From the NCBI RefSeq assembly GCF_018873765.1, contig NC_057925.1, positions 61,392,970-61,456,969 on the forward strand: a DNA stretch of 64,000 bases, given 5' to 3'. Below are positions 35,376-38,300 of this stretch, piece after piece; the first letter of the stretch is position 1; the number at the start of each line of letters is the position of its first letter. Below the pieces are notes generated by a model. It did not search any database. It was not told the origin of the DNA and saw only the letters and a program-made list of their open reading frames with translations. This DNA is from Telopea speciosissima. Lineage: Eukaryota; Streptophyta; Magnoliopsida; Proteales; Proteaceae. Both the position numbers and the translations under genes were made by a program.

Positions 35376-38300
35376 ATGTGCGACAAAGTTCTTGATTCTC
35401 TTTCTTCGGTTGCAGATAATTTTATGGATACAAATGTAGAGAATAAAAGTGTCCCATCTATCAGGCCTACCATTGCTTCTACTCGAAAGCCTTTGGTATT
35501 GTCAACCAATGGTGTGCATGATCTGCTTGTCTGTCCTATTTGTACCAGCTCAATGTACCCTCCCATTCACCAGGTTTGTACTTTCTATCTGATTCTGTCA
35601 TTCCATGGTCCCATATTCAGTTGACAATGTGCCTGCTTAAGATTTTGTTTTAAAAGGTGCCTGCTCTTTTCATTTTAATTTTTTTGCTTCCAAATAATGA
35701 CACTCAACGGATTCCATTTTTCGGATGTAGAAATCCAAGAATTTTACACATAAAACATTCCCAACACTCCTTCATTAGGACCCACATGTCATTCTTGGAA
35801 CTTTCTTTTGCTTTGGCGTCTAGGCAAGGTTCTAAATTTCGGTTTCAACCAGCTAGAAACCGAGATTGTCTCGGTTTCGACCTTATCTCGGTCGAAACCT
35901 GGTACTTTCTCCAGGCTAACTTGATCCTTGGTTTCGAAGCCCATAAGTTGTTTTTTTGCCCTGATTCTCGTTGTGCTGCCTATTTTTGACATTTTGAACC
36001 CAATCCATGCATTAGTTTCACATAGAGAACACTCAAAATAATACTTATGGTTTTGACCTAAGTTTGATAGTGTATATTGTTCTTGGACATGGTATCTAAT
36101 AAGGTTTGACCGGAACGTAACTCCTTCAATATATATCATATTTAACCAACAAAGTTTTCAAACAAATCCAAGATTGCTTAAATCTGATATATATTGAAGG
36201 AGTTATGTACCAGTCAAACTTAATTTGGTGTGTGCGAGTGAATGTTGTTTAAAATCGCTCTGAATGGAAACAAATTTTTAAACATCAAAACAAATGAATA
36301 TTGTACCGCTATTTTGGTTTTTAGTCCGAAAAAGAAGAGCAAAGCAAAAGAAACAGGCCCAAAAGTAAACCAACCCCTTGGACTGCTACGAAAAACACCA
36401 CCGGATTTCAAAGTAGCACGATCTAATTCAAACATTTCACCCAATTGAGCGCGTCTAGCATATTTTTTCACAGTAGCAGGATCGCTATAACTGACTCCAT
36501 TGAGTTCGCCACCATAGAACTCAACAGTTACACCTACTTGTTTGACACTATACTTCGATTCTGCATGTTTTATCATATTAAGATTTATGAAATTTTTAGA
36601 TTTAAGAAAAAACCCAACATTTAAAAGTTGAAAATTGCACCTATCGTCGAAAATCCAGTTTTTGTTCTTGAACTGGGGGTTGACTTTTTATCCTTTTAGA
36701 AATTGATTTTTAACTATTTTTATTGGATTCAAATAGGGGGTATTCGCTTATTTATGAATACTATCTTAAGTATAAAAACATTTACTTAAATGATATTTGG
36801 CATAAATAAGTGACTGTCCAGGTTTCGAACCAAGTTTCCTCAAGTTTCGATGGGGATAAGTGAATTTATGTAGGTGTTTAGGTCGAAACTTGCGAAATTA
36901 CCAAAATATGGTCAAAATAGGGTCGAAACATGTCGAACATTGCATTTTTAAAAGTCCCATGCCAACTCGTCTCGGTCACCTGCGAAACCGAGATTTAGTT
37001 CCATGCGTCTAGGAGAGATACAACTGTCATGGTCTTATTTGGATGCTTCCTGATGGCTGATGCAGGATGTCAATGATCAGTGGGTCTCATGTCTCAAAAG
37101 TTGCTAGTTCGTTGAAGGTCTAGGAACCTCTAGAAAATATAGGTAGGAGCAAGAGAATGAGGAGAAGGGAGATAAATGTAGAGTTTAACTAATAACCTGA
37201 CCTCTAATTGAAATTTCAGTAATTAGAGACAAGCAAGGTGATGGAATTGCGAATTTACCCTTCATAAAAAGGAAAAAAGATGGAATTACAGCACCACCAA
37301 TTACTCCTCTAGAGAACCCAAGAGTGTGGCAGAGAATATATAAATAATTTTCTCATCCAGGAATAGCAGATTACTAGGACTCTTTATAGGGCTTACAAGG
37401 GAGTTACTAATGCAAATATCCACTTGAAAGTGAAAACTCAAAATATTTTCACCTAAAAGGAAATATGGCGCTATTAACAGGAGTAAAAAATTTCAATGGA
37501 TCTGTATTAAATCATAAAAATAACTCAGTTTGGTCACAACCAAGGTTGGGTCTCTATCTCCAGCTAGGTTCCATCTGAGTTCTTTTGCCTATGATGTACA
37601 CCTTCACCATGATCCCTCTCTCCCTTTTTCCATTTTGGTTATGTGCAGCAAATGCCAATGACTGCAATCAAGAGTCAACCGCCACTGCACAGTGAGGAAG
37701 GATATGGTGTGAGTTGATTGACCTATGTTGAAGTAGTAAGACCATAAATGCTCATGAGTCATTGCCCTAGATATAGTGGAGTGGTGGAATTGTATGTCTT
37801 TCTGTCCCCAAGTAGGTTGTGTAAGGCTTGGTTAAGGATCCCCACATGTTTCCTTCTCCTTTTTACCTTTTTCTGTTGCTTCCCTTGATAATATTGACTA
37901 ATGCAATCAACACTTCTTTCCCTAAGCAAATGTCCTGATGTAAGGGTTCAAGCAACATTGGTTTGATGTTTTGGAATTCTACAAATTATTTAAAATTAGA
38001 CTTTTATTTGTAAGTGATTCTTGAAAAGTGTGCCTTGAATTTGAAAATAATTTAAAAATGAGTTAAGGGAGAGAGAACTTTGGTTGCATTTAAGATGTGA
38101 GTCCTGAAGGTAGATTTGAGAACGTAAGACAATGAACGAGTGGCTATTCCAAAAAAAGTATTCTCATGCAATAAGAAGATAGGGTTTGTGACCTACCAGA
38201 ATCCAATTGAAAAACTAAGCTAAGAGATCTAACTTCACTGAGAAAGTTCCTTTCTTTCTCAAGCACTTAATTTCTCTCTTAAGAAAGTCCATTACTCCTT

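Follow-up and report, generated by a model that had tools for sequence, protein, structure and literature searches.

A plastid psbB fragment in one copy of a hAT-type element within a SINA intron of Telopea speciosissima: probably an ordinary break-repair integrant

The locus and its features

The window analysed here (the whole stretch of 64,000 nt) belongs to nuclear contig C10 (63.6 Mb), positions 61392970-61456969, and includes a SINA-type gene whose first intron holds a hAT-type element, with a piece of plastid psbB in the interior of the element (Table 1). Exons downstream of this intron match Sina_ZnF (4e-31) and Sina_TRAF (4.1e-35), in agreement with the location in SINA intron 1 given by the original prediction; an Rfam search of positions 35000-41000 returned nothing at gathering score.

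Table 1. Coordinates of the psbB piece, the element, and neighboring features (positions in the window).
Feature	Position	Strand	Remarks
GCP3 reading frame	22027-24297		Nuclear gene in the 64-kb window; 100% identical to Telopea speciosissima protein
Intron 1 of SINA-type gene, holding the element	35574-40071	plus	GT...AG; splice sites by eye
Left target-site duplication, CGTCTAGG	35817-35824		Exact match to 37006-37013
Non-autonomous hAT-type element	35825-37005		1181 bp with psbB, about 940 bp without; inverted ends and 8-bp duplication
Left end of element	35825-35937		Repeated GTTTCGA and CTCGG motifs
Internal hairpin of element family	36098-36225		Fold -51.8 kcal/mol
Open frame, psbB piece into element sequence	36220-36576	minus	118 codons; no sign of function
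psbB piece, plastid origin	36324-36564	minus	CP47 residues about 385-465; 36324-36325 ambiguous
Right end of element	36816-37005		Repeated GTTTCGA motifs and right inverted end (36984-37005)
Right target-site duplication, CGTCTAGG	37006-37013		Exact match to 35817-35824

The element starts with CAAGG and ends with CCATG (inverted ends CAAGG/CATGG), its inverted ends being identical at 18 of 22 positions. Of 8055 pairs of 8-bp direct repeats scanned in the window, the pair bounding it is one of two with at least 18/22 inverted-end matches, and its assignment as a 1181-bp hAT-type element is thereby upheld. The same combination of an 8-bp duplication with short inverted ends is found, with exact duplications, at 5 of 29 other loci (see below). 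GTTTCGA, a word picked after inspecting the sequence, occurs eight times in the window; seven of these fall in the terminal parts of the element, whose middle has none. In a control set of 605 other stretches equal in length to the element, some 7-base word occurs seven or more times in 12 (all eight displayed being a CATCACC simple repeat around 60.9 kb) and six times in 12. The hairpin was considered as a nested insertion, and this was rejected because other copies carry it too, matching in both directions (e.g., L027, L031, L039).

The psbB piece is antisense to SINA. Read on the minus strand from 36564 to 36326, it matches plastid contig L002 at 222 of 239 bases (93%), without gaps or stop codons, and a second plastid contig, L001, at 219 of 241 bases, also without gaps. 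Its edges are set at 36326-36564 by the plastid alignment, with 36324-36325 also plastid-compatible on comparison with L001 and further nuclear psbB pieces, so the earlier bounds of 36325-36565 were correct to a base or two. As protein it matches PF00421 (2.3e-31) and, at best among solved structures, a CP47 chain (1.7e-45; residues 2-82 of the query aligned to 384-464 of the chain). A match through chance is not in question, and the claim of a CP47 fragment of about 240 bp is confirmed. Both plastid contigs are filed under bacterial genome bins. L002, however, has reading frames that we take to be ClpP, PsbH, PetB, PetD, and RpoA, and is on that account plant plastid DNA; by content, both contigs are. 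With nuclear genes adjoining, the piece is plastid DNA in a nuclear chromosome (a NUPT); it has no visible function and is decaying.

Phage and plasmid collections gave no match, and 12 stretches of viral contigs fit a pattern with no relatives among them. A shared psbB-element junction was found in none of 13 aligned proteins (120 of 340 listed were screened, the rest of the 120 for the psbB end only). Three plant proteins (P0001, P0002, and P0014) leave psbB at residue 465, as the window piece does; this ending is seen in 4 of 29 listed protein tails, including P0053 by way of an apparent frameshift, and may be coincidental or reflect either a breakpoint hotspot or a splice site that arose through decay.

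The insertion site in other copies of the element

A 401-base probe, comprising psbB plus 76 and 86 bases of element and junction on its two sides, was compared with the 822.9-Mb genome (1287 contigs), yielding 75 matches from the 40 of 2128 first-look candidates that were scored. Besides the window, at least 29 loci match parts of the element and 11 match psbB, with one (L041) in both sets; all were fetched (L021-L059). At 27 of the 29 element loci the sequences flanking the site adjoin without interruption, giving 32 joins in all, some loci having two copies. The join was not found in L021 or L022, which also lack psbB. It reads GCAATG in 22 of 32 cases and differs by a few bases in the other 10, for a consensus of TTTTTAGCAATGTTTT (TTTTTAG-CA-ATGTTTT), as against TTTTTAG-psbB-ATGTTTT in the window.

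If the parent matched this consensus, two bases (CA) were exchanged for psbB in the window copy; both the insertion site and the parent bases are consensus readings, from which 10 of the 32 joins depart. Microhomology amounts to at most 1 bp, a G common to element and plastid on the left side and nothing on the right, and against the consensus of the 32 joins there is no duplication of element sequence at the psbB junctions. The junctions thus show 2 bp lost, 1 bp or less shared, and no target duplication. End-joining marks described at plastid integrants are a short deletion with 1-7 bp of microhomology or blunt joins (PMC6215612).

The fragment is therefore very probably an ordinary NUPT, acquired as filler when a break was closed in an element copy that was there before it. 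A hAT-type element would already have been sitting in the SINA intron when a double-strand break occurred within it; non-homologous end joining would have closed the break with a plastid psbB fragment as filler, the CA being lost at the site, and the psbB piece would have decayed from then on.

Relative age and alternative origins

Contig C12 (1.44 Mb) carries two psbB pieces, L043 and L044, about 403 kb apart and alike in their aligned part. One of these was omitted in deriving the host plastid state of psbB, for which the majority base among two plastids and ten other nuclear pieces was used. The window piece departs from this majority at 6 of 239 sites (four firm, two on thin columns); for the other ten nuclear pieces the difference is 7-16%. 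One firm change (column 22) is common to the window piece and a piece on C7. All four firm changes alter an amino acid, which fits DNA free of constraint, although the number is small. An earlier tally of eight derived changes (codon-position test, p = 0.008) is superseded, four of the eight being probable host-plastid states.

For the element itself, a tree with 11 other copies gives an end branch of 0.067-0.078 (two builds). These 11 were hand-picked as full-length from 26 aligned copies, many of which are not full-length and have unreliable values in the divergence table; six of the nine inner branches are weak, and the nearest sister may lie outside the tree, in which case the end branch would be too long. 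Compared with this branch, four firm changes in 239 psbB sites are too few (p = 0.002); when only changes unique to the window copy are counted (32 of 873), the difference is not significant (p = 0.15). With 4-6 changes in 239 sites against a branch of this length, psbB is probably later than the element, and it likely arrived with the element in place.

This bears on a second possible history, in which psbB was already part of the element before a single cut-and-paste transposition brought both from another site to the SINA intron. Since cut and paste leaves no second copy, a lone psbB-bearing copy with intact duplications is compatible with such a move; psbB nevertheless looks younger than the element (by the branch comparison, less so by private changes), and we consider this history unlikely.

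Pack-TYPE capture, with psbB acquired by the family in the course of transposition or gap repair and multiplied along with it, is suggested at first sight by the intact element ends and exact 8-bp duplication that enclose the piece, and hAT elements are able to carry gene pieces (PMC8903248). The search for psbB in other element copies had been set beforehand as the test of this, and psbB was at the window's insertion point in none of the 29 other element loci (among the 40 of 2128 candidates scored); no captured piece in more than one copy, as expected of Pack-TYPE elements, was found there, and in 27 of the 29 the site is uninterrupted. Probing with psbB alone yielded 41 matches from 40 of 81 candidates scored, with 30 loci read together with 1.5 kb on each side; there was no second copy of the window insertion among these, nor any intact psbB among the 41 assembly matches. 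Capture is accordingly very improbable, and of the two routes left open by the original prediction, insertion of plastid DNA into the element is supported, while the other, capture followed by spread, fails the test. Because the copies that can be checked lack psbB at the site, the piece looks like an ordinary break-repair patch rather than one captured and spread: a well-bounded plastid integrant in one repeat copy.

Two of the 30 psbB loci read do fall within the element family, the window and C6:54740642-54740883. The latter is positions 2143-2384 of L041 (C6:54738500-54743500), a rearranged element copy with inverted parts; a third match, L086, hits a stretch of L039 that is probably a nested repeat. 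The C6 piece lies at a different point in the element, and a segment of the element of about 45 bp is present twice there, once on either side of psbB. That the window psbB came from this copy by recombination or gap repair, or that both descend from one shared ancestral insertion, is hardly credible: the psbB parts overlap and have the same orientation to the element, but insertion points and psbB ends differ (L002 3010-3250 on C6 vs. 3071-3309 in the window), and the C6 piece is more decayed (16/181 changes vs. 6/239); of the four sites with firm changes in the window it spans three, and it has the window's change at none of these. It is apparently an older, independent event.

Two psbB pieces of different ages, in the same orientation, in two copies could also mean that copies of this hAT family are preferred landing sites for plastid DNA, the transposase cutting them repeatedly. 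If the family is assumed to make up 0.25, 0.5, or 1% of the genome, the probability of one such piece among 28 others is 7-25%, and of two among 29, 0.2-3%; the former is the fair figure, because the window was chosen for having a psbB piece. In 30 angiosperms, NUPTs are nearer to DNA transposons than expected in 3 species and farther in 22 (PMC12572781), which disfavors preferred landing as a general rule, and here too we regard it as improbable. Were it true, transposon breaks would be a measurable route of entry for organelle DNA into the nucleus.

Known systems and other elements of the window

Filler insertion into a pre-existing element, as preferred here, shares several features with other NUPTs formed by end joining: a short internal plastid fragment, few bases lost on insertion, minimal or absent microhomology, an intronic position, and decay without constraint. 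Plastid pieces within genes are found mostly in untranslated regions or introns, and many occur with transposons in certain species (PMC7037861); on sex chromosomes, NUPTs have been described as amplified together with retrotransposons (PMC6698032). The window piece differs in lying inside a repeat copy, so that there are many unfilled copies of its site for comparison. Its interest is as a clean example: the dozens of unfilled copies make an end-joining outcome readable to the base, a repeat family gives a reference for dating when plastid DNA arrived, and a gene piece between intact transposon ends does not require capture by the transposon.

Like other non-autonomous (MITE-like) hAT-type elements, this one has short inverted ends, 8-bp duplications, many copies, and no transposase frame that we could see; unlike them it is about 940 bp long without psbB, with an internal hairpin. 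Usual MITEs are shorter than this. Pack-TYPE hAT elements, as presented in the packFinder study (PMC8903248), similarly have a gene piece between hAT-type ends with 8-bp duplications, but for the window element a second piece-bearing copy was not found among the candidates scored. That study discarded singletons and gives most non-Pack elements as under 500 bp; the words chloroplast, plastid, organell, and mitochondri are absent from its main text. A literature search turned up no title describing plastid DNA, psbB included, within a hAT element, which is no proof of absence.

Four loci of the family (L024, L034, L037, and L053) have nearby inverted pairs of element copies, foldback-like in arrangement. 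Elsewhere in the window, a coding hAT element begins at 59880 and runs to about 64897, beyond the end of the window (L090), with a BED finger (3.4e-06), DUF659 (4.4e-48), and a dimerisation region (6.2e-16). Its DUF659 part is most similar to Macadamia proteins (55-56% identical). Its first 11 bases are common to the left end of the psbB-bearing element (18 shared bases when the flank is counted), and at its best right end the flank agrees with the left flank at 4 of 8 bases. A likeness over 7 bp between the duplication of the psbB-bearing element and the bases before the coding hAT was considered as a target rule and rejected, the duplications of five other copies being unlike it.

A 1578-bp stretch at 43243-44820, with CATGG inverted ends (21/22) and exact 8-bp duplications (TTGACAAG), is probably a further hAT-type element. 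Two other stretches (53089-53742 and 54868-55303) start with TAGGGATGTAA and have inverted ends matching at 15 of 22 positions, the first 10 identical, with exact 8-bp duplications. Direct repeats at 11248-11499 and 16165-16419 are 96.9% identical, and the frames between them (region 11248-16419) presumably belong to a copia-type retrotransposon, to judge by eye.
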